This document shows positions 12,450 to 60,036 of a stretch of 64,000 nucleotides of DNA, one piece after another. The DNA comes from Bacteroidetes bacterium RIFCSPLOWO2_12_FULL_37_12. Lineage in GTDB: Bacteria; Bacteroidota; Bacteroidia; 2-12-FULL-37-12. The first letter of the stretch is position 1. Each line of letters opens with the position of its first letter. The translations under genes were made by a program, and so were the position numbers. The stretch lies in contig MEPC01000024.1 of the NCBI GenBank assembly GCA_001769655.1, positions 327,572 through 391,571 of the forward strand. The letters are read 5' to 3'. Below the pieces are notes generated by a model. That model was not told where the DNA came from, did no database searches, and saw only the letters and a list, made by a program, of their open reading frames with translations.

Positions 12450-13157
12450 CTACCCTCTCGCCTTCAATCCAATCACCTCCCTTGCCGTCAACATTCGCCA
12501 ACGACCTCTCGGTAGATTTTTATTCGTGATGCCTGCATATTCAATCCGTTCGAGTTGTTTAACCTCGAATCCAATCGTTTCAAACATTCTGCGGACAATC
12601 CGGTTGCGCCCTGAGTGCATGGTCACTTCCAACCAGAATAGCTGATGGTTTTGCACTAATTCCACGCTATCGGGTACAGCAAGTCCATCTTCGAGCATAA
12701 CCCCCTTGCTTAATTTTTGAATTTCCATATTTGACATCATGCGTTCAGGTGTCACTCGGTAAATCTTTTTAATTTTATTTGATGGATGTGCTAACTTCTG
12801 CGCCAACTCCCCATCGTTAGTTAACAGCAACACTCCAGTTGTGTTTCTATCCAAGCGTCCTATTGGATACAGCCGTTCCTTGCATGCGTCCTTTACAAAA
12901 TCCATCACTGTTTTTCTGCCTTCAGGATCATAGGTAGTAGTAATGCAATCTTTAGGTTTGTTCAATACAAGATAAACCCTTTTTTCTATACGGATATTTT
13001 TTCCTCTTACCAGAATTTCATCTTCCGGATTTACTTTTATACCAAGTTGATTGACGGTTTTTCCGTTTACTTTAACCAACCCGTTTTCAATCAGTTCATC
13101 CGCTTTACGCCTTGAACAAATACCGGCGTTTGAGATTAGTTTGTTTAGTCGAAGCAT
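12450..13157 (-). CDS. rluB: RluB-type 23S rRNA pseudouridine synthase
   Basis: A 235-residue enzyme of the RsuA/RluB/RluE/RluF family that isomerises a uridine in rRNA. An N-terminal S4 RNA-binding domain (LNKLISNAGICSRRKADELI, about 3-22 onward) precedes the catalytic domain with PIGRLDRNTTGVLLLTNDG, whose D103 is the nucleophile, and the late motif HSGRNRIVRRMF. The start at 13157 (MLRLNKL) is the natural one; a longer frame upstream translates only a GGTATAGGGG repeat (LYPYTHIPLYPYT). It follows scpB, a common neighbour. RluB versus RluF specificity is not certain. The TAG stop lies in a GAGAGGGTAGGGGG run. Confidence 0.88.
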   Translation of the reverse strand: MLRLNKLISNAGICSRRKADELIENGLVKVNGKTVNQLGIKVNPEDEILVRGKNIRIEKRVYLVLNKPKDCITTTYDPEGRKTVMDFVKDACKERLYPIGRLDRNTTGVLLLTNDGELAQKLAHPSNKIKKIYRVTPERMMSNMEIQKLSKGVMLEDGLAVPDSVELVQNHQLFWLEVTMHSGRNRIVRRMFETIGFEVKQLERIEYAGITNKNLPRGRWRMLTAREVIGLKARG

Positions 13158-13162
13158 GTGGG

Positions 13163-13281
13163 TGGTGGTATAGGGGTATAGGGGTATATGGGTATAGGGG
13201 TATAGAGGTATAAAGGTACAGGGGTACAGGGAGAACTTCAATTTTTCCTTATACCTTATACCCTTATACCTCTATACCCTA
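13163..13281. repeat. GGTATAGGGG palindromic array between scpB and rluB
   Basis: Tandem GGTATAGGG units (about 13163-13232) are followed, after a short spacer, by complementary CCTTATACC / CCTCTATACCC units (about 13248-13280). On the minus strand this is the 5' side of rluB, so the transcript should form a large imperfect stem covering the scpB-rluB junction. Confidence 0.8.
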
Positions 13282-15164: not shown

Positions 15165-18100
15165 ATGAAAAAACCTTTAATTATTTCTTGTTTTACATTT
15201 TACATTTTGCATTTTACATTCTACATTTTTTGTTTCCTGTTTTGCGTTTTAAATTCTTCCGCGCAACAATCCAACAATTCTGGCAAGCAAAGCCGAACTA
15301 CCGACTCCCTGCTTACTTTACTCAAAACCGACCGCCAAGACACCAACAAAGTAAATCACCTGAACGCTCTTGCTAATCTTTACATCTCTTCCGAACCCAA
15401 GCAGGCATTAAAATACGCTCAGCAGGCATTATCACTCGCAAAAAAAATTAATTGGAAAAAGGGGCTTGCTGATTCATATCAATCTATGGGCTATTATTAT
15501 TACACACAAGGCGATTATCCTAACACGCTTGACTATTGGCTGAAGGCACTGAGAACAAGTGAAGAACTCGGAGATAAAAACAGAATTGCAGCAAATATCG
15601 GCAACATCGGGGGTGTCTATTTGAATCAAGCCGATTACCCCAAAGCTCTTGAATATTTTTTAAAGACATTGAAAATAAAAGAAGAACGTAAAGATAAAAA
15701 AGGAATAGCAACTTGGCTCAGTAACATCGGGCTTGTCTATATTTGGCAAGCTGATTACTCCAAAGCACTTGACTTTTTTTTCAGGTCATTGAAAATTGAT
15801 GAAGAACTCAGAAATAAAAAAGGAATCGCAATCACTCTCGGTAACATTGGGCTTGTTTATTATTCTCAAACTGATTACTCCAAAACCCTGAATTATTATT
15901 TCAGGGCATTGACAATGGCAGAAGAACTTGGAGACAAGAATGGAGTTGCTCGGCATCTCGGTAATATCGGAGGTGTTTATGGTAGCCAAGACAATTATCC
16001 TAAAGCCCTTGAATATTTTTTCAGGGCATTGAAAATGGTTGAAGAACTTGGAAATAAAAATGAAATTGCAACTAATCTCGGCAATATCGGAATAATGTAT
16101 AAGAAACAATCTAAATACACAAATGCGCTTGATTATTATTTCAAAGCATTGAAGATGAAAGAAGAACTCCGAGATAAAAATGGAATTGCAAACACTCTTG
16201 GCAATATCGGTTCGCTTTATGCAAAAATGGGAGATGAGACGAAAGACGTGTTACAAAAGAAAAAATTATTTGCTGATTCAGAAAAATATTTACTGGATGC
16301 ATTAAAGATTGATAAAGAAATAGGCACCCAAAATAGTGAAAGGATAAAAGAAGAACTCCTCTCCAACCTCTACGAAAAATCCAACCGCCCCACCCTTGCA
16401 CTGGAACATTACAAAAAAGCAAGGGTACTAAAAGATACGATTTTCAACGAAGAAAAAAGCAAGGACATGGGAAAATTGGAAGCGAAGCACGAGTACGAAA
16501 TGACAGAACTAAAACGCAAGCAACAAGAGGAGGAAAATCAGCGGCAGGAGGCAGTGACAGTTGGCAGGAGGAACAAGCTCCAATATTCAGGGATAGTGAT
16601 TGGCTTAATGTTTTTATTTATAAGTATATTTTTGATTTCAAAAAAATTCAAAAAGGAAACGTCCATCTTCCAGACAGAAACGGTTCACGGAAACGAAAAA
16701 ACCTATCGCAGAAATGTAAAAATAATTGAAATTTCATTGTTCATTTCTTTTTTGATTTTCTTTGAATTTATATCCGTTTTATTGGATCCATTCAAAGAGC
16801 ATCTCACCGGCGGGGCGCCCTTGTGGAAACTTCTGATAAATGCTGTGGTTGCCGGCGCTATTTTTCCGATTCATAATATTTTAGAAAGAAAGTTGTCTCC
16901 GGCTTATACCGGCTTGCGAAAGAATGAAGATGAGAGGGAGAAAGGGGGAAAGGGAGAAAGTGGGAAAACCGCTCACTTTCTCACTCTTATTGCAAATCAT
17001 TTTAAATTTGGCACATTTATCTGCTTAGCCGTAGTTATGAATTTGAACTATGGTTTTGATTCTAAATCCCAATACGTAAATCCTAAATCTAAATTCGTAA
17101 ATCCTAAACTGGACTCTCTCAAAGCCGAACTGCAAAAACAATTGCACGATACTACGAGGATAATTACACTCAATAATCTCGGTTGGAAACTGAAGAATAG
17201 TAACCCCGATACTGCCATACTACTTAGCAGCCAGGCGCTCGCCCTCTGCGAAAATTTATCTTCGCATAATAACCAAACAGGTCTCACGCAAAGCTGCAAA
17301 GCTCGTAAAGAAAATAATTTATTATTTTCTACTTTGCGTTCTTGGCGCCTTAGCTTGACAAATTATTTTACCAAAGAATGTGAAGATACTTCCAAAAACG
17401 CACTAAAATCTAAAATCCAAAAGTTAAAATCCAACACCCTCAGCAACCTCGGGGTTTATTATCGTCTCAAAGGCGATTATCCTTTTGCGCTTGAATATTA
17501 TTTCAAGGCATTGAAGATAAATGAAGAATTCGGATATAAAAAAGGAATTGCAATCGTTCTCAGCAATATCGGAGCTGTCTTTTATGAGCAAGCCGATTAC
17601 CTCAAAGCCCTTGACTATTATTTCAAAGCATTGAAAATTGCGGAAGAACTCGGAGATAAAGATAGAATTGCCCAATGTCTCGGTAATACCGGTAATGTTT
17701 ATTTCAATCAAACCGATTACCCTAAAGCCCTTGATTATTATTTCAGGGCATTGAAAATGGCGGAAGAACTTGGAAATAAAAATAATATTGCCGCATGGAT
17801 CGGCAACATCGGAATTGTCTATAAAGAACAAAACGACTACACCAAAACCCTTGAGTATTATCACAGGGCATTGAAGATAAAAGAAGAACTCGGAGATAAA
17901 AATGGAATTGCAATTTGGCTCGGCAACATCGGAATTATCTATGTAGAGCAAAACGACTACCCAACGGCACTTGAGTATTATTCCAGGGCATTGAAGATGA
18001 AAGAAGAACTCGGAGATAAAAATGGAATTGCAAACAATCTCGGCAACATCGGCGTGCTTTATACTACAATGATAGGAGAAACAAAGGACGATAGGCAAAA

Positions 18101-18710
18101 GAAAAAAATATTTGCTGATGCAGAAAAGTATTTATTGGAAGCAATAAAAATTGACAAAGAAATAGGATCGCAGAATGAAGAAAGGCAATTTGAAGAATTC
18201 CTCTCCACCCTCTACGAAAAATCCAACCGCCCCACGTTTGCTTTGGAACATTTCAAAAAAGCAATGGCATTAAAAGATACGATTTTCAACGAAGAAAAAA
18301 GCAAGGACATCGGTAAATTGGAGGCGCGACACGAATTTGAGATAACGGAATTGAAACGCAAGCAACTGGAGATGGAAGAAAGTAGGAAGTTGGCAGTAGC
18401 TGTGGGCAGGAGGAATACACTTCAATATTCGGGTATTCTGATAGGTATAGTGGTTTTATTTAGTTTCGTACTTCTGATGGGAAGGTTCAAAATACCTGTG
18501 CGTTTTGCGGAAGGGCTTGTTTTTATTCTGTTCCTTATCTTTTTTGAGTTCCTGCTCGTACTTAGCGACCCCTATACGGATGTATGGACGGGCGGGGCAC
18601 CTGCATGGAAGCTATTAGTGAATGCAGTGTTTGCTGGCGTAATTTTTCCATTGCATGCTTTTTTTGAGAGAAAATTGAAGAACAGGTTGCTGAAATTGAG
18701 GAATAAATAA
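15165..18710 (+). CDS. Two-module TPR membrane protein (giant TPR family, gene 1)
   Basis: 1181 residues. Module 1: a hydrophobic signal (1-34) encoded by an ACATTTT repeat, six 40-residue TPR units of the form YPKALEYYFRALK..EELGDKNGIA..LGNIGIVY plus flanking TPRs, a coiled coil (GKLEAKHEYEMTELKRKQQE) and three membrane segments (about 475-490, 520-540, 556-573) around the motif DPFKEHLTGGAPLWKLLINAVVAG. A linker EREKGGKGESGK from a GAGAAAGGG repeat (about 590) and a fourth hydrophobic segment lead to module 2, which has five 40-residue units, coiled coil and three more membrane segments (to about 1165). Residues about 706-733 are a translated palindrome. No catalytic or DNA-binding domain is visible. 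Probably a protein-interaction scaffold with the TPRs facing the periplasm. Confidence 0.8.
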   Translation: MKKPLIISCFTFYILHFTFYIFCFLFCVLNSSAQQSNNSGKQSRTTDSLLTLLKTDRQDTNKVNHLNALANLYISSEPKQALKYAQQALSLAKKINWKKGLADSYQSMGYYYYTQGDYPNTLDYWLKALRTSEELGDKNRIAANIGNIGGVYLNQADYPKALEYFLKTLKIKEERKDKKGIATWLSNIGLVYIWQADYSKALDFFFRSLKIDEELRNKKGIAITLGNIGLVYYSQTDYSKTLNYYFRALTMAEELGDKNGVARHLGNIGGVYGSQDNYPKALEYFFRALKMVEELGNKNEIATNLGNIGIMYKKQSKYTNALDYYFKALKMKEELRDKNGIANTLGNIGSLYAKMGDETKDVLQKKKLFADSEKYLLDALKIDKEIGTQNSERIKEELLSNLYEKSNRPTLALEHYKKARVLKDTIFNEEKSKDMGKLEAKHEYEMTELKRKQQEEENQRQEAVTVGRRNKLQYSGIVIGLMFLFISIFLISKKFKKETSIFQTETVHGNEKTYRRNVKIIEISLFISFLIFFEFISVLLDPFKEHLTGGAPLWKLLINAVVAGAIFPIHNILERKLSPAYTGLRKNEDEREKGGKGESGKTAHFLTLIANHFKFGTFICLAVVMNLNYGFDSKSQYVNPKSKFVNPKLDSLKAELQKQLHDTTRIITLNNLGWKLKNSNPDTAILLSSQALALCENLSSHNNQTGLTQSCKARKENNLLFSTLRSWRLSLTNYFTKECEDTSKNALKSKIQKLKSNTLSNLGVYYRLKGDYPFALEYYFKALKINEEFGYKKGIAIVLSNIGAVFYEQADYLKALDYYFKALKIAEELGDKDRIAQCLGNTGNVYFNQTDYPKALDYYFRALKMAEELGNKNNIAAWIGNIGIVYKEQNDYTKTLEYYHRALKIKEELGDKNGIAIWLGNIGIIYVEQNDYPTALEYYSRALKMKEELGDKNGIANNLGNIGVLYTTMIGETKDDRQKKKIFADAEKYLLEAIKIDKEIGSQNEERQFEEFLSTLYEKSNRPTFALEHFKKAMALKDTIFNEEKSKDIGKLEARHEFEITELKRKQLEMEESRKLAVAVGRRNTLQYSGILIGIVVLFSFVLLMGRFKIPVRFAEGLVFILFLIFFEFLLVLSDPYTDVWTGGAPAWKLLVNAVFAGVIFPLHAFFERKLKNRLLKLRNK
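16931..16965. repeat. GAGAAAGGG repeat inside TPR gene 1
   Basis: In-frame copies of the GAGAAAGGG unit encode the EREKGGKGESGK linker between the two modules. The last unit pairs with CACTTTCTC at 16974-16982 (GAGAAAGTG at 16954-16962), making a 9-bp stem. Confidence 0.85.
17063..17112. repeat. TAAATC repeat inside TPR gene 1
   Basis: Repeated TAAATCCTAAATCTAAA units, translated as SKSQYVNPKSKFVNPK just before module 2. The same unit is in frame in TPR gene 2 (20688-20740) and between genes at 28379-28397. Confidence 0.8.
17279..17362. repeat. In-frame ACGCAAAG palindrome in TPR gene 1
   Basis: A left arm starting TCTCACGCAAAG and a right arm with ACTTTGCGTTCTTGGCGCC. This is a weakened version of the copy in TPR gene 2 (20908-20990). 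It is translated as a stretch beginning TGLTQSCKARKENN and ending SWRLSLTNYF, inside the second TPR domain. Confidence 0.85.
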
Positions 18711-18730
18711 TATGTAATCTCTCAACAGGG

Positions 18731-18855
18731 TAATAAAATACAAAATCATGGGGACACGGAGAACAAAAAAAAACACGGAGGCGATAATTCAAAATATATT
18801 TTCCTAATAGCTTTTCTCTGTGTAACTTCGTGTTCTCTGTGCCTCTGTGGTGAGT
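18731..18855. repeat. Family-2 interspersed element (GACACGGAG / CTCTGTG), copy 1
   Basis: Starts near TAATAAAATACAAAA, has a left arm GGGGACACGGAGAAC, an AATTCAAAATATAT centre and a right arm TCTCTGTGTAACTTCGTG then CCTCTGTGGTGAGTA. Alignable along its full length with 38047-38172. It occupies the gap between TPR genes 1 and 2. Confidence 0.85.
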
Positions 18856-18876
18856 ATTAACAATAATATTTAGTTA

Positions 18877-21800
18877 ATGATAAATATTTTTTACAAATTT
18901 TCCATTTTTTTCATCCTCTTTGGTCTTGCGAGCGGGAATTCGAGCCATGGGTCATCCCATATTGACTCTCTCCTCGCCCTACTAAAAAAAGACAAAGTCG
19001 ATTCCAACAAAGTAAATCACCTGAACGCCCTTTCTAATCAATACATCTCTTCTGAACCCAAACAAGCATTGAAATATACTCAGCAAGCATTATCGCTCGC
19101 AAAAAAAATTAATTGGAAAAATGGCATTGCTAATTCATTTCATATAGTTGGCTATTATTATTACACACAGGGCGATTACCCCAACACGCTTAATTACTGG
19201 CTGAAGTCATTAAAGACAAGAGAAGAACTTGTAGATAAAAAAGGCATTGCCACTTCTCTCGGCAACATCGGCAATGTCTATCATGCGCAAGCCGATTATC
19301 CCAAAGCCGTGAACTATTATTTGAGGGCATTGAAGATGGCGGAAGAACTCGGATTCAAACAATTGCAGGCAAACACTATCGGCAACATCGGAATTGTCTA
19401 TATCGCTCAAGCCAATTACCCCAAAGCCCTTGACTATTATTTCAGGGTATTGAAGTTAGTAGAAGAACTTGGAGATAAAAACGGAATGGCAGCGTGGCTC
19501 GGCAACATCGGAATTATCTATCATAATCAAGCCGATTACTCCAAAGCCCTGAACTATTTTTTCCAGGCATTGAAAATGGCGGAAGAACTCGGAGATAAAA
19601 ATAGAATTGCAAACGCCTTCGGCAACATCGGAAATGTCTATAATGAGCAAGCCGATTACCCCAAAGCCCTTGACTATTATTTCAGAGCAATGAAGATGAA
19701 AGAAGAACTCGGAGATAAAAATGGAATTGCAAACATCCTCGGTAATATCGGAAATATCTATAATGAACAAGCCGATTACTCCAAAGCCCTTGACTATTAT
19801 TTCAGAGTATTGAAGATGAAGGAGGAACTCGGAGATAAAAAAGGAATTGCAATCAATCTCGGCAACATCGGCTCTCTTTATACAACTAAGGGAGAAGAGA
19901 CGAAGGACGAGGGACAAAAGAAAAAACTATTTGCTGATGCAGAAAAGTATTTAACGGATGCATTGAAGATTGACAAAGAAATAGGAGCGCAGGATCATGA
20001 AAGGCAATTTGAAGAATCGCTTACCACCCTCTACGAAAAATCCAACCGTCCTACGCTTGCCCTGGAACATTACAAAAAAGCAAGGGCATTGAAAGATACG
20101 ATTTTCAACGAAGAAAAAAGCAAGGACATGGGAAAATTAGAAGCGAAACACGAGTACGAAATGACAGAACTAAAACGCAAGCAACAAGAGGAGGAAAATC
20201 AGCGGCAGGAAGCAGTGGCAGTTGGAAGGAGGAACAAGCTCCAGTATTCAGGGATAGTGATTGGCTTAATGTTTTTATTTATAAGTATATTTTTGATTTC
20301 AAAAAAATTCAAAAAAACAGCGTCCATCTTTGAGACGGATACGATTCACGGAAACGAAAAAATCTATCGTAGAAATGTAAAAATAATTGAAATTTCATTG
20401 TTTATTTCGTTTTTGATTTTCTTTGAATTTATATCCGTTTTATTGGACCCATTCAAAGAGCAACTTACCGGCGGCGCGCCCTTGTGGAAACTTCTGATAA
20501 ATGCTGTAGTAGCCGGCGCTATCTTCCCAATTCATAATATTTTAGAAAGAAAGTTATCCCCGTCTTATATTGGTTTGCAAAAGCACGGTGATGAAAGGGA
20601 GAAAGGGGGAAAGGGAGAAAGGGAGAAAGGGGGAATTGGAATAGTTATCGGCTTGACAATGGTTATGGTTTTGAACTATGGTTTTGATTCTAAATCCCAA
20701 ATTGTAAATCGTAAATCTAAAATCGTAAATCCTAAACTGGACTCTCTCAAAGCCGAATTGCAAAAACAATTGCACGATACTACGAGGATAATTACACTCA
20801 ATGATCTTGGCAGAGAATTAATGAACATCAACCCAGATACTGCCATTCTGCTTAGCAATCAGGCGCTCACCCTCTGCGAAAATTTATCTTCATATAACAA
20901 CCAAACAGGTCTCACGCAAAGACGCAAAACTCACAAAGAAAATAATTTATTAATTTCTATTTTGCGTTCTTGGCGCCTTTGCGTGACAAATTATTTTACC
21001 AAAGAATGTGAAGATACTACCGAAACCGCACTAAATTCTAAAATCCAAAAGTTAAAATCCAATACGCTCAGTAATCTCGGAGTTTACTATCATGTCAAAG
21101 GCGATTATCCGCTTGCTCTTGATTGTTATTTCAAAGCATTAACACTGGATAATGCACTCAAAAACAAAAGTGGTATAGCAAAGCGATTCGGTAACATCGG
21201 ACTTGTCTATTGGAATCAAGCCGACTACCCCAAAGCTCTTGATTATTATTTCAAAGCATTGAAAGTGGTAGAAGAACTCGGAGATAAAAACGGAATTGCG
21301 CGGCAGTTAGGTAACATTGGAATTGTCTATTATGATCAATCAGACCACTCCAAAGCACTTGACTATTATCTCAGGGCACTGAAGATGAAAGAAAAATTGG
21401 GCAATAAAAATGAAATTGCAAACACACTTGGCAATATCGGACTTGTCTATTGGCAGAAAGGCAACTACGCCAATGCCATTGATTATTACAAGAGGGCTTT
21501 GAAAATAGCTGAAGAACTCGGTGATAGAAATAGTGAAACAGCAATACTTGGAAACTTAGGTATTGTATATAAAGAACAAGGCGATTATCCAAAATCTCTT
21601 AACAATTATTTCAGAGCATTGAAGATTTCGGAAGAACGCGGAGATAAAAGAAGTTTTGCAATTAATACAGGGAATATAGGATGGATTTATACAATAATGA
21701 GTGGAGAGCAAGTTAATGAGCGACAGAAGAAAAAACTCATAGCAGATGCAGAAGAGTATTTACTGTCTGCGCTTAAAATTAATAAAGAATTAGGAGCCAT

Positions 21801-23310
21801 GGACAATGAAAGGAAGATAGAAGGACATCTCACCGAACTCTACGAAAAATCAAACCGCCCTTTGCTTGCCCTGGAACATTACAAAAAAGCAATGGCATTA
21901 AAAGATACGATATTCAACGAAGAAAAAAGCAAGGACATCGGTAAGTTGGAAGCGCGCCACGAATTTGAAATGACAGAACTGAAAAGAAAACACGGGGAGC
22001 AGGAAGAAAGTAGAAAGTTGGCGGTGGCAGTGGGTAGGAGGAATACACTTCAGTATTCGGGTATTCTAATAGGTATAGTGGTTTTATTTAGTTTCGTACT
22101 TCTGATGGGAAGGTTCAAGATACCTGTGCGTTTTGTGGAAGGGCTTGTTTTTATTTTGTTCCTTATCTTTTTTGAGTTTCTGCTCGTACTTAGCGAACCT
22201 TATACGGATGTATGGACGGGCGGGGCACCTGCATGGAAGTTATTAGTAAATACGGTGCTTGCCGGGGTGATATTTCCGTTGCACCATTTTTTAGAGAATT
22301 TGATAAAAAGGCGGATGATTGCTTCCCAGAAAAAGACCATTTCAAAATCAGATGAAGGAAAAAACACTATGAAAAATTTACTTTTTTTTGTAGTAATATC
22401 GGCTGTATTGGTATTGAACACCGGGTTTATTAATCCTGTGGATTCACTAAGGTCAGAACTTACAAAAAATCTTGCTGACACTACTAGGATAAACCTGCTC
22501 AACTCTCTCGGATGGGAACTAAAATATTCCAATCCCGATACTTCCATTATTTTATTTAATCAAGCGCTTGCCCTATCTGAAAAAATAAAATGGAAAAGAG
22601 GAATTGCAAATTCATTGCGAAGCATTGGTGTTTTTAACTTTTTGAAAAGTGACTACAATCAGGCATTAAAATATTATTTTTCCTCATTAAAAATAACCAA
22701 AAAAATAGATGACAAACATGGAACAACCACTACTCTTGGTAATATTGGTGTTGTTTATTGTAATATTAACGAGTACCCAAAAGCATTGGAATGTTATTAT
22801 GAAGCATTGAAGGTGTATAGGGAATTGAGTAACAATAATGGCGTTGCTAATATGCTCTGTAATATAGGAAAAGTCCATTCCTATCAGGGTGACTATCCAA
22901 AAACATTGAAGTACTATTTTGATGCATTAAAGATAGATAAAGAATTGGGCAACAAAAGTGGAATTGCAAGACACTACGGTAATATTGGGCTTGTATATTG
23001 GAATCAAAGCAATTATTCAAAAGCATTGGAATACTATTTTGAATCACTGAAATTAAAAAAAGAACTCGGAAATAAAAGAGAAATAGCAATTACTGCCGGC
23101 AACATCGGAATTGCATATCATGATTTGATGAACTATCCAAAAGCACTGGAATTTTATCTTGAAGCATTGAAAATAAAAAAAGAACTCGGTGATAGAAAAG
23201 AAATTGCAATTACAACAGGTAACATTGGAATTATTTATCATGAACAAGGGGATTATCAAAAGGCATTGGAATTCTATTTCAACGCGAAGACACTAAGAAA
23301 CACTAAGTAA
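18877..23310 (+). CDS. Three-module TPR membrane protein (giant TPR family, gene 2)
   Basis: 1477 residues, three fused modules. Signal peptide 1 to about 22. Module 1 has six 40-residue TPR units, a coiled coil and membrane segments at about 460, 504 and 538. The GAGAAAGGG-derived linker (about 573-587), a hydrophobic segment and a TAAATC-derived stretch lead to module 2 with five units, a translated palindrome (about 678-705) and membrane segments from about 1062 to 1140. Module 3 begins at an internal methionine (1165, base 22369) that opens a complete signal-peptide-like segment MKNLLFFVVISAVLVLN, then has five full units and a truncated sixth ending NAKTLRNTK, encoded by a palindromic repeat that also supplies the stop. 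Module 3 lacks the coiled coil and membrane block. Start chosen by similarity to gene 3 (TTAATGATAAA). Confidence 0.8.
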   Translation: MINIFYKFSIFFILFGLASGNSSHGSSHIDSLLALLKKDKVDSNKVNHLNALSNQYISSEPKQALKYTQQALSLAKKINWKNGIANSFHIVGYYYYTQGDYPNTLNYWLKSLKTREELVDKKGIATSLGNIGNVYHAQADYPKAVNYYLRALKMAEELGFKQLQANTIGNIGIVYIAQANYPKALDYYFRVLKLVEELGDKNGMAAWLGNIGIIYHNQADYSKALNYFFQALKMAEELGDKNRIANAFGNIGNVYNEQADYPKALDYYFRAMKMKEELGDKNGIANILGNIGNIYNEQADYSKALDYYFRVLKMKEELGDKKGIAINLGNIGSLYTTKGEETKDEGQKKKLFADAEKYLTDALKIDKEIGAQDHERQFEESLTTLYEKSNRPTLALEHYKKARALKDTIFNEEKSKDMGKLEAKHEYEMTELKRKQQEEENQRQEAVAVGRRNKLQYSGIVIGLMFLFISIFLISKKFKKTASIFETDTIHGNEKIYRRNVKIIEISLFISFLIFFEFISVLLDPFKEQLTGGAPLWKLLINAVVAGAIFPIHNILERKLSPSYIGLQKHGDEREKGGKGEREKGGIGIVIGLTMVMVLNYGFDSKSQIVNRKSKIVNPKLDSLKAELQKQLHDTTRIITLNDLGRELMNINPDTAILLSNQALTLCENLSSYNNQTGLTQRRKTHKENNLLISILRSWRLCVTNYFTKECEDTTETALNSKIQKLKSNTLSNLGVYYHVKGDYPLALDCYFKALTLDNALKNKSGIAKRFGNIGLVYWNQADYPKALDYYFKALKVVEELGDKNGIARQLGNIGIVYYDQSDHSKALDYYLRALKMKEKLGNKNEIANTLGNIGLVYWQKGNYANAIDYYKRALKIAEELGDRNSETAILGNLGIVYKEQGDYPKSLNNYFRALKISEERGDKRSFAINTGNIGWIYTIMSGEQVNERQKKKLIADAEEYLLSALKINKELGAMDNERKIEGHLTELYEKSNRPLLALEHYKKAMALKDTIFNEEKSKDIGKLEARHEFEMTELKRKHGEQEESRKLAVAVGRRNTLQYSGILIGIVVLFSFVLLMGRFKIPVRFVEGLVFILFLIFFEFLLVLSEPYTDVWTGGAPAWKLLVNTVLAGVIFPLHHFLENLIKRRMIASQKKTISKSDEGKNTMKNLLFFVVISAVLVLNTGFINPVDSLRSELTKNLADTTRINLLNSLGWELKYSNPDTSIILFNQALALSEKIKWKRGIANSLRSIGVFNFLKSDYNQALKYYFSSLKITKKIDDKHGTTTTLGNIGVVYCNINEYPKALECYYEALKVYRELSNNNGVANMLCNIGKVHSYQGDYPKTLKYYFDALKIDKELGNKSGIARHYGNIGLVYWNQSNYSKALEYYFESLKLKKELGNKREIAITAGNIGIAYHDLMNYPKALEFYLEALKIKKELGDRKEIAITTGNIGIIYHEQGDYQKALEFYFNAKTLRNTK
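20593..20636. repeat. GAGAAAGGG repeat inside TPR gene 2
   Basis: In-frame tandem units encode EREKGGKGEREKGG, the basic linker between modules 1 and 2. The unit count differs from genes 1 and 3, consistent with in-frame expansion or contraction. Confidence 0.85.
20688..20740. repeat. TAAATC repeat inside TPR gene 2
   Basis: TAAATC/TAAATCG units translated as SKSQIVNRKSKIVNPK; same position relative to the modules as in gene 1. Confidence 0.8.
20908..20990. repeat. In-frame ACGCAAAG palindrome in TPR gene 2
   Basis: Best-preserved copy: TCACGCAAAGACGCAAAA on the left and TTTTGCGTTCTTGGCGCC then TTTGCGTGA on the right; the outer 10 bp (TCACGCAAAG / CTTTGCGTGA) are a perfect inverted repeat. 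Translated as a stretch beginning TGLTQRRKTHKENN and ending SWRLCVTNYF, absent from module 3 of the same protein at the equivalent position. Confidence 0.88.
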
Positions 23311-23352
23311 ACTCTTTGTGTAACTTTGTTTCTTCGTGTCTTTGTGTTTAAA
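23282..23352. repeat. Palindromic element forming the 3' end of TPR gene 2
   Basis: Left arm GCGAAGACACTAAGAAACACTAAG, which encodes the last residues, with the TAA stop directly after it; right arm CTTTGTGTAACTTTGTTTC then TTCGTGTCTTTGTG. Same general design as family 2 but a different sequence. Confidence 0.8.
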
Positions 23353-23384
23353 AAACTGCATTATGCAAGATGTCTATTAAATTA

Positions 23385-26300
23385 ATGATAAACAAACGTA
23401 ACAAATTTTTTATTTTTTTCCTGCTTTTTTGTCTTGCGAGCGGGAATTCGAGCCATGGGTCACCCCATATTGACTCCCTCCTCACTCTTCTCAAAAAAGA
23501 CAAGCCCGATACCAACAAAGTAAATCACCTGAACGCTCTTGCTAATCTTTACATCTCTTCCGAACCCAAGCAGGCATTGAATTATGCTCAGCAGGCATTA
23601 TCACTCGCAAAAAAAATTAATTGGAAAAAAGGAATTGCTAATTCGTTTCATATTGTTGGCTATTATTATTATTCACAGGGCGATTATCCAAACACGATTG
23701 ACTACTGGCTGAAGGCATTAAAGACAAGAGAAGACCTCGGAGATAAAAATAATATTTCAGCCACTCTCGGAAACATCGGAATTGTCTATAGAGATCAAGC
23801 TGATTACTCCAAAGCCATTGACTATTCTTTCAGAGCATTGAAGATGAAAGAAGAACTCGGAGATAAAAAAGACATTGCAAATACTCTCAGCAACATCGGA
23901 ATTGTCTATTGGAATCAATCCAATTACCCCAAAGCCCTTAACAATTATTTTAGGGCATTGAAGATGGCAGAAGAACTCGGAGATAAAAAAGGAATTGCAA
24001 TCATTCTCGGCAACATCGGAATTGTCTATAGAGATCAAGCCCATTACCCCAAAGCACTTGTCTATTATTTCAGGGCATTGAAGATTGCTGAAGAACACGG
24101 ATACAAACAATTGCAGGCAATCACTCTCGGCAACATCGGACTTGTCTATAATGGGCAAAACGATTACCCCAAAGCCCTTGACTATTATTTCAGGGCATTG
24201 AAGATGGCGGAAGAACTCGGAAATAAAAATAATATTGCAGTATGGCTCGGCAACATCGGAATTGTCTATACAGATCAAGCCGACTACCCCAAAGCCCTTG
24301 ACTATTATTTCAGGGCATTGAAGATGAAAGAAGAACTCGGAGATAAAAATGGAATTGCAATCAATCTCGGCAACATCGGCGCGCTTTATACAACAATGGG
24401 ACAAGAGACAACGGACAAGGGGCAAAAGAAAAAATTATTTGCTGATGCAGAAAAGTATTTATTAGATGCATTAACTATTGACAAAGAAATAGGAGCACAG
24501 AATTATGAAAGGCAATTTGAAGAACTCCTCTCCACCCTCTACGAAAAATCCAACCGTCCTACGCTTGCCCTTGAACATTTCAAAAAAGCAAGGACATTGA
24601 AAGATACGATATTCAATGAAGAAAAAAGCAAGGACATCGGTAAATTAGAAGCGAAACACGATTACGAAATGACAGAACTAAAACGCAAGCAACAAGAGGA
24701 GGAAAATCAGCGGCAGGAGGCAGTGGCAGTTGGAAGGAGGAACAAGCTCCAGTATTCAGGAATAGTGATTGGCTTGATTTTCTTGTTTATAAGCATGTTT
24801 TTGATTTCAAAAAAATTCAAAAAAACAGCGTCCATCTTTGAGACGGATACGATTCACAGAAACGAAAAAAACTATCGTAGAAATGTAAAAATAATTGAAA
24901 TTACACTGTTCATTTCTTTTTTGATTTTCTTTGAATTTATATCCGTTTTATTGGACCCATTCAAAGAGCAACTCACCGGCGGGGCGCCCTTATGGAAACT
25001 TCTGATAAATGCTGTAGTTGCCGGCGCTATTTTTCCGATTCATAATCTTTTGGAAAGAAAGTTGTCACCGATTTATACCGGCTTGCGAAATATTGAAGAT
25101 GAAAGGGAGAAAGGGGGAAAGGGAGAAAGGGGGAAAGGGAGAATTGGAATAGTTTTCGGCTTAGCCATGGTTTTGAGTTTGAACTATGGTTTTGATACTA
25201 AAACTGACTCGCTCATCATCCTCCTCAAAAAAGACAAACCCGATTCTAACAAAGTAAGGCACTTAAACGCTCTTGTTTATCAATACATCTCTTCCGAACC
25301 CAAACAAGCACTGAAATACGCTCAGCAGGCATTATCAATCGCACAAAAACTAGAATGGAAAAAGGGGATTGGTGATTCTTTTCATTCTTTGGGCTATTAT
25401 TATTACACACAAGGCGAATATACTAAAACTCTTGACTACTGGCTGAAGGTATTGAAAACAAGCGAAGAACTCGGAGATAAAAATGGAATTGCACAGCATT
25501 TAGGCAACATCGGAAGTGTCTATATGGAGCAAGCCGATTACCCCAAAGCCCTTGAATATTATTTCAGAGCATTGAAGAAGGCAGAAGAACTTAGAGATAA
25601 AAATAAAATTGCTCCCGTCCTCGGCAACATCGGAATTGTCTATAAAGAGCAAGCCGATTACCCCAAAGCCCTTGAATATTATTTCAGGGCATTGAAGATG
25701 AAAGAAGAAATGAAAAATAAAAGGGAAATTGCTATCACCCTCGGTAATATCGGAAATGTCTATGTTGAACAAGCCGATTATCCAAAAGCCCTTGACTTTT
25801 ATTTCAAAGCATTGATGATAGCGGAAGAACTTCGAGATAAAAACGGGGTTGCCAGGCATCTCGGCAACATAGGAATTGTTTATGATGTGCTAGTTGATTT
25901 CCCCAAAGCACTGGACTATTATTTCAGGGCATTGAAGATTGAGGAAGAACTCGGAGATAAGAGAAGTGCGGCAATAAACCTCAGCAACATCGGCTCGCTT
26001 TATACAGCTATGGGAGAAGATACTAAAGGCGAGGGGCAAAAGAAAAAACTATTTGCTACTGCAGAAAAGTATTTGCTGGATGCATTGAACATTGACAAAG
26101 AAATAGGGACACTTGATGGAGAAATACAGGACGAAGAAGCCCTCACTGCTCTCTACGAAAAATCCAACCGCCCCGTGCTTGCCCTGGAACATTACAAAAA
26201 AGCAATGGCATTAAAAGATACGATTTTCAATGAGGAAAAAAGCAAGGACATCGGCAAATTGGAAGCGCGACACGAATTTGAAATGACGGAATTGAAACGC

Positions 26301-26672
26301 AAACAACAGGAGATGGAAGAAAGTAGGAAGTTAGTAGCGGCAGTAGGAAGAAGGAATATGCTCCAGTATTCAGAGATAGTACTCGGCTTATTGATTCTAT
26401 TTATAATCATTCTGATAATTGCAAAAAGATTCAAAAAAATCACAAACGAAAAAATGTTTCTGCAATACCAGAAAATCATGGAAGGAACTTTATTTGTTTC
26501 CTTTTTAATTTTCTTTGAATTCATCCTCGTGCTCATGGATCCCTACATAGAGCAGTTCACCGGCGGGATTCCTCTTTATAAACTTCTTATCAATGTTGCA
26601 GTGGCGGGAATCATTTTTCCTATTCATCAATTTCTGGAGGGTAGGGTTAAGGGGGGAGTTATTGGGCATTAG
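23385..26672 (+). CDS. Two-module TPR membrane protein (giant TPR family, gene 3)
   Basis: 1095 residues from the methionine at 23385, which aligns with the start of gene 2 (both in TTAATGATAAA); an in-frame ATG at 23370 adds five residues. Signal peptide, six 40-residue TPR units, coiled coil and three membrane segments (from about 467 to 565) are followed by the GAGAAAGGG-derived linker DEREKGGKGERGKGRIG, a hydrophobic segment (VFGLAMVLSLNYGF) and module 2, which repeats a whole module start (DSLIILLKKDKPDSNKV), five units, coiled coil and membrane block ending DPYIEQFTGGIPLYKLLINVAVAGIIFPIH in two parts. Unlike genes 1 and 2 it lacks the ACGCAAAG insertion. The TAG stop lies in an ATTGGGCATTAG repeat. 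No effector domain is visible. Confidence 0.8.
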   Translation: MINKRNKFFIFFLLFCLASGNSSHGSPHIDSLLTLLKKDKPDTNKVNHLNALANLYISSEPKQALNYAQQALSLAKKINWKKGIANSFHIVGYYYYSQGDYPNTIDYWLKALKTREDLGDKNNISATLGNIGIVYRDQADYSKAIDYSFRALKMKEELGDKKDIANTLSNIGIVYWNQSNYPKALNNYFRALKMAEELGDKKGIAIILGNIGIVYRDQAHYPKALVYYFRALKIAEEHGYKQLQAITLGNIGLVYNGQNDYPKALDYYFRALKMAEELGNKNNIAVWLGNIGIVYTDQADYPKALDYYFRALKMKEELGDKNGIAINLGNIGALYTTMGQETTDKGQKKKLFADAEKYLLDALTIDKEIGAQNYERQFEELLSTLYEKSNRPTLALEHFKKARTLKDTIFNEEKSKDIGKLEAKHDYEMTELKRKQQEEENQRQEAVAVGRRNKLQYSGIVIGLIFLFISMFLISKKFKKTASIFETDTIHRNEKNYRRNVKIIEITLFISFLIFFEFISVLLDPFKEQLTGGAPLWKLLINAVVAGAIFPIHNLLERKLSPIYTGLRNIEDEREKGGKGERGKGRIGIVFGLAMVLSLNYGFDTKTDSLIILLKKDKPDSNKVRHLNALVYQYISSEPKQALKYAQQALSIAQKLEWKKGIGDSFHSLGYYYYTQGEYTKTLDYWLKVLKTSEELGDKNGIAQHLGNIGSVYMEQADYPKALEYYFRALKKAEELRDKNKIAPVLGNIGIVYKEQADYPKALEYYFRALKMKEEMKNKREIAITLGNIGNVYVEQADYPKALDFYFKALMIAEELRDKNGVARHLGNIGIVYDVLVDFPKALDYYFRALKIEEELGDKRSAAINLSNIGSLYTAMGEDTKGEGQKKKLFATAEKYLLDALNIDKEIGTLDGEIQDEEALTALYEKSNRPVLALEHYKKAMALKDTIFNEEKSKDIGKLEARHEFEMTELKRKQQEMEESRKLVAAVGRRNMLQYSEIVLGLLILFIIILIIAKRFKKITNEKMFLQYQKIMEGTLFVSFLIFFEFILVLMDPYIEQFTGGIPLYKLLINVAVAGIIFPIHQFLEGRVKGGVIGH
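25101..25145. repeat. GAGAAAGGG repeat inside TPR gene 3
   Basis: In-frame GAGAAAGGG/GGGAAAGGG units, encoding EREKGGKGERGKGR between modules 1 and 2. Confidence 0.85.
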
Positions 26673-26732: not shown

Positions 26733-26850
26733 AACATATAACACTAAACAAGAAATGAAAAAAGTATAAGTAGGAACGCTATACCAAGAACAATTACAAA
26801 AATTTGGATTGGGAACCCACTTAGTCATTTATTGTTAAGTGTTATATGTT
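26733..26850. repeat. Family-3 MITE-like element (AACATATAACACT), copy 1
   Basis: 118 bp with inverted ends AACATATAACACTAAACAAG and CTTAAGTGTTATATGTT-type right end (TTATTGTTAAGTGTTATATG). It aligns over its whole length with 35018-35133. The rest of the 295-bp gap before the VTC gene holds only the promoter below. Confidence 0.85.
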
Positions 26851-34969: not shown

Positions 34970-35017
34970 GGATAAATTGTTTATTTTAAACCAAACCAAT
35001 TCAAGTTTTATTAAAAA

Positions 35018-35133
35018 AACATATAACACTAAACAAGAAATGAAAAATGTATAAATAGAATGCAATACAAAAACTATCATAAATATTTGAATAGTAACCC
35101 TAATTAGTAATTTATTGTTAAGTGTTATATGTT
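35018..35133. repeat. Family-3 MITE-like element (AACATATAACACT), copy 2
   Basis: 116 bp with the same inverted ends as copy 1 (26733-26850) and alignable internal sequence; similarity continues into ATTCATTATTTTT on the right. It sits between the HlyD and ATPase genes of one probable operon, so it probably inserted there. Nothing else is recognisable in this 269-bp gap. Confidence 0.85.
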
Positions 35134-35238
35134 ATTCATTATTTTTTAGCAACTTAGCGAAGCGATCTCATGAACTCTTAAAAAAAATAAACATAGTGTG
35201 AATAAATCTGTTTAAGACCTGTGTATATTGATTAAAAA

Positions 35239-38046: not shown

Positions 38047-38172
38047 GAATAAAATACAAAACCACGGAGACACTGAGTACACAAAGAAGCACAGAGATGT
38101 TTATTCAAAATATATATTTCCATGTTTATTCTCTGTGTAACTCCCTGTTCTCCGTGCCTCTGTGGTGAGTAG
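38047..38172. repeat. Family-2 interspersed element, copy 2
   Basis: Aligns from AATAAAATACAAAA to CCTCTGTGGTGAGTAGTAAC with copy 1 (18731-18855); left arm CCACGGAGACACTGAG, right arm CTCCGTGCCTCTGTGG. It fills most of the 386-bp gap before the next gene; no gene seen there. Confidence 0.85.
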
Positions 38173-41212: not shown

Positions 41213-41365
41213 ACTGTTCAGTCCAAGATGAAAAAATACAATTTAGCCACAGATTGCACTGATTAATGTGACATAAAATCTAAAAACCATTTTTAATCCG
41301 TGTAATCAGTGGCTAAAATTTTTTTTTATTCAATTCATGGTTTAATTGCGTGGGTACTGAACAGT
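41213..41365. repeat. Palindromic interspersed element, family 1, copy 2 (most complete)
   Basis: 153 bp with perfect 10-bp outer ends ACTGTTCAGT (41213-41222) and ACTGAACAGT (41356-41365) and inner arms at 41246-41265 (GCCACAGATTGCACTGATTA) and 41294-41313 (TAATCCGTGTAATCAGTGGC). Nested inverted repeats without coding capacity, as in MITEs. It fills the 288-bp gap before the next gene. Confidence 0.85.
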
Positions 41366-59907: not shown

Positions 59908-60036
59908 TTACTATTCAGAAGTAAGAAAAATTCAGCCACAGATTACACGGATTATTTCTTTATAAAACTAATTTTTTTTACTTCGTTTTTTAATCCGTGT
60001 AATCAGTGGCAAAGAAATAATCAAACCGAACAGTAA
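59908..60036. repeat. Palindromic interspersed element, family 1, copy 3
   Basis: Outer ends TTACTATTCAG (59908-59918) and CCGAACAGTAA (60026-60036); inner arms GCCACAGATTACACGGATTA (59935-59954) and TAATCCGTGTAATCAGTGGC (59991-60010). Lies between lptC and the GldJ-like gene. Confidence 0.85.

Follow-up and report, generated by a model that had tools for sequence, protein, structure and literature searches.

Two neighbouring genes in the 64-kb stretch of DNA from Bacteroidetes bacterium RIFCSPLOWO2_12_FULL_37_12 that was analysed here (the window) each contain a palindrome that is translated in frame inside a tetratricopeptide repeat (TPR) protein. Our results lead to the conclusion that these in-frame palindromes are probably one relic of a mobile family of palindromic repeats, tolerated in a loop of the TPR domain. 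A core copy would have entered the long loop between TPR1 and TPR2 in the common ancestor of both module-2 copies, either as an insertion or through recombination with a further copy, and would then have been duplicated together with the gene. On this reading the encoded peptide is a passenger linker and not a conserved functional sequence. The element appears to be undescribed in the literature searched, as do its link to genes of the GxxExxY (PDDEXK_3) family and its repeated occurrence within a single protein family.

Genes 1 to 3 of the window form a tandem array encoding two, three and two TPR modules, respectively, together with membrane segments (Table 1). An inverted repeat of the ACGCAAAG type lies in frame in the second module of both gene 1 and gene 2, as the preliminary description had reported; both positions were read directly and both open reading frames (ORFs) are uninterrupted. 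Its statement that the outer 10 bp of the second copy pair perfectly also holds (TCACGCAAAG/CTTTGCGTGA), and a repeat search gave this copy arms of 26 nt with 77% complementarity. The palindrome codes for 28 residues, and in an alignment of the modules gene 2 module 2 exceeds the five other window modules by 51 residues at this point (27+24 gap columns), the rest of the excess being a non-palindromic loop. These lengths are close to the earlier estimate of about 28 residues, or about 45-50 with flanks, and the alignment likewise agrees that module 3 of gene 2 and both modules of gene 3 are insert-free.

The best local hairpin at copy 2 scored 19.5, the maximum of gene 2, where the remainder did not exceed 10.5 and 30 codon-shuffled versions of the gene reached at most 14.5. 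Copy 1 gave the maximum of gene 1 (14.5, the remainder reaching 11.0), a score that does not exceed the top codon shuffle of gene 2. RNA folding z-scores were -3.8 for copy 2 and -2.3 for copy 1. The gene 1 copy, described earlier as having lost much of its pairing but not its frame, is a partly decayed hairpin.

The inserts of genes 1 and 2 lie at the same codon and are 88% identical, and their flanks are 86% and 91% identical. Judged from these alignments, the two window copies are one event, at the same site in paralogous genes and followed by gene duplication, and not independent insertions. Nine differences distinguish the two inserts, falling 5/2/2 over the three codon positions. The codon changes comprise 8 nonsynonymous and 0 synonymous in the insert and 12:14 in the adjacent flanks (Fisher p=0.011); insert dN is 0.134 and dS 0.056, with a dN/dS of 0.13-0.24 for the flanks. 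Maintenance of the protein sequence, which had been suggested from the preserved frame, is therefore unsupported, because the codon changes in the insert are all nonsynonymous.

In an AlphaFold2 model, for which the seven window modules served as input, residues 53-92 have a pLDDT below 50 and the bordering TPR helices exceed 90, so that the palindrome is predicted to encode a low-confidence, unstructured loop between TPR1 and TPR2. Further paralogs elsewhere in the genome also have loops here, about 10-20 residues long and unrelated to this one, which indicates that the site is permissive. The insert would thus have been tolerated because the loop absorbs about 50 residues with the TPR helices untouched, because stop codons hardly occur in the 8-nt ACGCAAAG units of the arms, and because the length and centre happened to preserve the frame. 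When the second half of the insert (AAATCTAAAATCCAAAAG) was sought as a repeat, only the two window copies were found.

Copies of the palindrome are numerous outside the window. The genome itself (3.94 Mb, 43 contigs, denoted by C-numbers) gave 71 blastn matches, and the arm pattern TCACGCAAAGNNGCAAAG, with up to 3 mismatches, matched 141 times as against 34 for the reversed pattern. The census that follows covers the blastn matches and about 100 of the 141 pattern matches, whose surroundings were examined; weak copies are missed by it. Among the matches listed there are 40 complete palindromes, 39 of them outside long ORFs and one being the gene 2 copy; the gene 1 copy, its decayed sister, is counted apart. 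The expectations that other genomic copies exist and that palindromes of this style usually lie between genes were thus both confirmed. Arms are open in five of six frames in 59 of 80 cases, and 10 of the 40 complete copies among the matches listed lack any open frame. Single arms occur in frame in three paralogous TPR-membrane proteins (C38:111232, C33:121227 and C30:15173; 'VSRKGAKAQR'), and a further in-frame arm lies at C24:23685. We also observed a triple ACGCAAAG arm in frame ('LTQRRKDAKG') in an RHS/YD-repeat-like protein at C32:42119-42144.

Complete intergenic copies bounded by GTAACTACTCAG, a 12-bp terminal inverted repeat, measure 143-167 bp overall. With up to 2 mismatches this repeat was found at both ends of 13 of the 40 palindromes and at one end or more of 29; the both-ends control gave 0/3378. 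Allowing up to 3 mismatches, 18 complete intergenic palindromes are bounded by it, and 15 of these 18 show 8-bp target duplications with 7-8/8 identity, as against none at shifted positions. All examined sequence together yielded 29 terminal-repeat pairs with an 8-bp duplication, and none in the shifted control. Based on these ends and duplications, the intergenic family resembles miniature inverted-repeat transposable elements (MITEs) and is mobile. The interiors of the terminal-repeat elements vary (ACGCAAAG arms, GCCACTGATTACACGGATT arms, AACACTAAACATAAAACAC arms and others), so the palindromes within a single type of terminal repeat are exchangeable. In the window only the core is present, namely arms with a different AT centre.

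IS66-derived MITEs have 8-bp duplications and GTAA ends. IS66 was considered as the source of a transposase for the terminal repeat and was rejected; PF03050 has no match in this genome, and it was found in 4 of 22 other genomes, in 3 of them above the cut-off. A terminal-repeat pair 2.9 kb apart (C22:3662-6580) holds an 816-aa ORF that was not recognised as a transposase; this pair is possibly due to chance or a composite.

The palindrome family is part of a larger group whose members have different arms; some members enclose a gene for GxxExxY, an uncharacterised nuclease-like protein. A GxxExxY protein with an in-frame arm matched TIGR04256 (E 3.6e-37) and also PF13366 (PDDEXK_3). The GxxExxY genes of this genome score well above the curated cut-off, and D and E-x-K are invariant in the four copies aligned. 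Of the five loci (Table 1), four are each enclosed by inverted arms, which come from a different interspersed palindrome family in every case; the fifth adjoins iterated direct repeats. The gene-bearing copy on C24 aligns with a neighbouring gene-less palindrome, and in this alignment the gene is an insertion that separates the 5' arm from the central stem. The element at C22:3018-3605 is 588 bp long and has GxxExxY for its longest ORF. Its terminal repeats (GTTACTACTCAG) are the same as those of the intergenic MITE-like copies, and its 8-bp duplication (AAAATTGC) is perfect.

This association extends beyond one genome. Among 80 GxxExxY loci taken from named GTDB genomes of many phyla, 76 were testable; for 57 of the 76 genes the inverted repeat at the flanks ranks higher than the 99th percentile of 1767 control positions, and CGCAAAG-type arms stand on both sides in 44 of 76, as against 1 of 1225 controls. 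Arms were present in 15 of the 16 named GxxExxY genomes searched, with up to 202 as against 2 in the control. Across 198 genomes of the same class, the 40 with a net arm count of at least 8 all carry GxxExxY (129/198 overall; p=2.8e-9, phylogeny uncorrected). No mobile-element role of GxxExxY/PF13366 was found in the literature searched, and we know of no description of a link between palindromes and GxxExxY. The protein may be part of how the palindromes spread. A broader reading, to which we give slightly less than even chances, is that GxxExxY is the encoded partner of a very widespread class of mobile palindromic elements of bacteria with arms of iterated CGCAAAG/CACGAAG/CGCAGAT-type units, the gene-less ones being non-autonomous derivatives, and that in this genome the palindromes have come repeatedly to lie in frame in the TPR-membrane family, giving loops, a stop codon and hydrophobic helices at junctions.

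TPR-membrane modules make up a very large paralogous family on many contigs, with 81 matches to one C-terminal domain and often two modules per ORF. In 40 family ORFs (108 kb), hairpins scoring at least 15 number 20 (5.5 per codon shuffle), those of at least 17.5 number 7 (1.0 per shuffle) and those of at least 20 number three (none in shuffles); hairpins scoring 13.5-17 include chance ones. Five in-frame palindromes of three other arm families, with scores of 17-28, precede the second module by 37-47 residues: GCCACGAAAACACTAAAACAC arms in the ORF at C38:109663 (score 28), CCCGCAGATTGCGCAGATTAACGCAGAT at C19:126812 and C16:111967, and AAACACGAAGAACACGAAG at C33:119259 and C38:149204. They encode the linker and, in the three tested, also a predicted membrane helix (KD19 1.76-2.71), and are related to copies elsewhere in the genome; the junction palindrome of a C38 TPR gene is 95% identical over 37 bp to an arm of the C22 GxxExxY element. 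It is plausible that these junctions arose where tandem genes fused through palindrome-rich spacers. At the same junction, window genes 1-3 show iterated GGGAGAAAG and AAATCCTAAATC repeats, translated in frame as module linkers (EREKGGKGEREKGG, NPKSKFVNPK). The stop codon of gene 2 is itself supplied by a palindrome, and module 3 thus ends without a membrane domain.

Several other explanations were weighed against that of a tolerated relic. That copy 1 scores no better than the top codon shuffle of gene 2 could mean that the inverted repeat arose by chance in an old TPR loop, but we give this practically no credence and regard it as ruled out, since copy 2 beats every shuffle and matches dozens of intergenic copies in sequence. 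A coding palindrome of the Rickettsia type, which by its own nature spreads into ORFs and whose peptide is now under selection, would account for the in-frame position, the nearly stop-free arms and the further in-frame arms on C38, C33, C30, C32 and C24. We consider it quite improbable, given the 39 of 40 complete copies outside long ORFs among the matches listed, the ten copies with no open frame, and the exclusively nonsynonymous codon changes in the insert. Read-through is likewise an unlikely source of the window copies, although it fits the junctions: tandem TPR genes would have fused and spacer palindromes turned coding, with the N-terminal region of module 2 as rebuilt spacer DNA. The palindromes before module 2 in five family ORFs stand where a spacer is expected, their relatives lie elsewhere in the genome, the three tested encode predicted membrane helices, and iterated repeats occupy the same place in window genes 1-3. 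The window palindrome, however, is about 56 residues inside module 2, past the normal first TPR and off the junction.

How the family spreads is a matter on which a further proposal is compatible with a tolerated relic. GxxExxY may, on sequence grounds and with somewhat less than even probability, be the mobiliser: a nuclease cutting palindromes or replication hairpins, with spread by repair, as a PD-(D/E)XK counterpart of the REP/RAYT system (repetitive extragenic palindromes and their associated tyrosine transposase) or of a homing endonuclease, the in-frame copies being by-products. The arms flanking the gene across phyla, the high ranks of the inverted repeats, the alignment of gene-bearing and gene-less copies as one insertion, the bounded and duplicated C22 element, the presence of the gene in every arm-rich genome and the invariant D and E-x-K all point this way. 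Against it, the nuclease role follows from the fold family, clean 8-bp duplications resemble the work of a DDE transposase on the terminal repeat, such a terminal repeat was lacking at four of this genome's five loci, and the genome sample is phylogenetically clustered; GxxExxY could also be a passenger, or defence or toxin-antitoxin-like cargo.

The tolerated relic that we prefer faces difficulties of its own. Neither terminal inverted repeats nor a target-site duplication accompany the window copies, and no match to GTAACTACTCAG within 1 mismatch occurs anywhere in the window, so the mode of entry can only be inferred; no transposase was found for the terminal repeat. Total divergence of the insert (12%) is below the flank dS of 0.27-0.51, which makes gene conversion or DNA-level constraint possible, and the selection test rests on nine differences, which is few. 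A search for insert-bearing orthologs in 40 same-class relatives gave weak TPR matches in seven genomes (best E 1e-7), which covered TPR parts and not clearly the insert; none of these relatives is of the same order or family, so they offer no empty site of the ancestral module for comparison.

Rickettsia palindromic elements (RPEs) make up several families of interspersed palindromes, and some of them are read in frame to give about 20-50 residues (PMC10969869, PMC3733652). The likeness drawn earlier to RPEs stands as far as an interspersed palindrome, present here in tens of copies and usually intergenic, is found in frame; the propensity for ORFs does not. RPEs hold a large in-frame share in unrelated ORFs, whereas here 1 of 40 complete copies, plus the decayed paralogous copy, lies in a long ORF, and a family so overwhelmingly intergenic does not qualify as an RPE family. 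Its sequence is probably different, and the present family further differs in the terminal repeats and 8-bp duplications of its intergenic copies, in the GxxExxY link, and in having its in-frame copies centred on one modular protein family. Most discussion of in-frame palindromes has concerned bacteria with an intracellular life, among them Rickettsia and Wolbachia.

REPs of the GTAG and CGTC types, with their RAYT, are short palindromes, mostly intergenic and in some cases within ORFs of various phyla, and the helper gene is flanked by repeats (PMC3733652). The present elements are similar in being short and mostly intergenic, in lying partly within ORFs and in having a repeat-flanked helper-like gene. 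Their arms, however, are iterated 8-nt units, GTAG/CGTC is absent from the stem foot, where the core ends, as read directly, in TCACGCAAAG/CTTTGCGTGA, and the helper-like gene encodes a PD-(D/E)XK protein and not a Y1 tyrosine transposase. The earlier remark that no description of in-frame palindromes in Bacteroidota is known holds, since none was found, although Bacteroidetes are reported to have CGTC-type REPs and several phyla to have REPs inside genes (PMC3733652). The intergenic copies also resemble bacterial MITEs (Nezha, RUP, ERIC) in a size of 70-300 bp, terminal inverted repeats, target duplications and the lack of coding capacity. They differ from MITEs in that one type of terminal repeat here goes with many palindromic interiors, a 588-bp copy carries GxxExxY, and no transposase was identified. 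No in-frame MITEs in Bacteroidetes were found in the literature searched.

Target-site duplications show the mobility of the intergenic family. Among the in-frame copies, the window loop as a tolerated passenger can be told apart from the junction helices, which may be useful. The GxxExxY link supplies a candidate helper for a very common, apparently unstudied class of repeats, and mobility is therefore directly testable.

Table 1. Features of the window (positions 1-64,000) and related loci on other contigs of the genome.
Feature	Positions	Strand	Remarks
Gene 1	15165..18710	+	uninterrupted ORF, 1181 aa; two-module TPR/transmembrane protein; palindrome in module 2
Gene 2	18877..23310	+	uninterrupted ORF, 1477 aa; three-module TPR protein; palindrome in module 2; terminates within another palindrome
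Gene 3	23370..26672	+	two-module paralog, insert-free (module alignment)
Copy 1, in-frame palindromic element	17279..17362	+	partly decayed hairpin; translated GLTQSCKARKENNLLFSTLRSWRLSLTN
Copy 2, in-frame palindromic element	20908..20990	+	arms 20912-20937/20961-20986; translated GLTQRRKTHKENNLLISILRSWRLCVTN
Gene 1 module 2, N-terminal part, paralogous region	17112..17861	+	alignment
Gene 2 module 2, N-terminal part	20740..21489	+	used in alignment and folding
Gene 2 module 3, N-terminal part	22441..23130	+	same position, insert-free; alignment
Predicted disordered loop between TPR1 and TPR2, module 2	20896..21015	+	encloses palindrome; model residues 53-92
Palindrome (CGCGAAGACACTAAG... CTTCGTGTCTTTGTG) with last codons and stop of gene 2	23277..23352	.	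inverted repeat; fold z -6.4
Intergenic palindrome between genes 1 and 2	18745..18855	.	other arm family (GACACGGAGAACA... TGTTCTCTGTGCC); fold z -5.2
Iterated GGGAGAAAG/AAATCCTAAATC repeats	16936-16995, 17064-17110, 20590-20640, 20690-20735		
Junction palindromes	C38:111491-111574, C19:128558-128630, C16:113842-113906, C33:120870-120995, C38:150230-150320		between two TPR modules
GxxExxY loci	C24:23731-24081, C22:3185-3535, C32:20214-20555, C19:160985-161326, C23:69021-69773		five loci in this genome

Further repeats were seen in the window. The N-terminal signal-like segment of gene 1 (FTFYILHFTFYIFCF, 15165-15260) is built of TTTTACATTTTACA repeats. Other palindromes are of the GCCACAGATTACACGGATT type (300-399, 41232-41327 and 59935-60010), the AACATATAACACTAAACAAG type (26733-26850 and 35015-35136) and the CACGGAGACACTGAG type (38061-38166); the GCCACAGATTACACGGATT and AACATATAACACTAAACAAG types are similar to what lies inside terminal-repeat-bounded elements at other places in the genome. 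A GGGTATAGGGGTATA palindrome at 13174-13279 lies at the start of a pseudouridine-synthase-like ORF (12450-13241, minus strand), the true start of which is probably an internal ATG (MLRLNKLIS).

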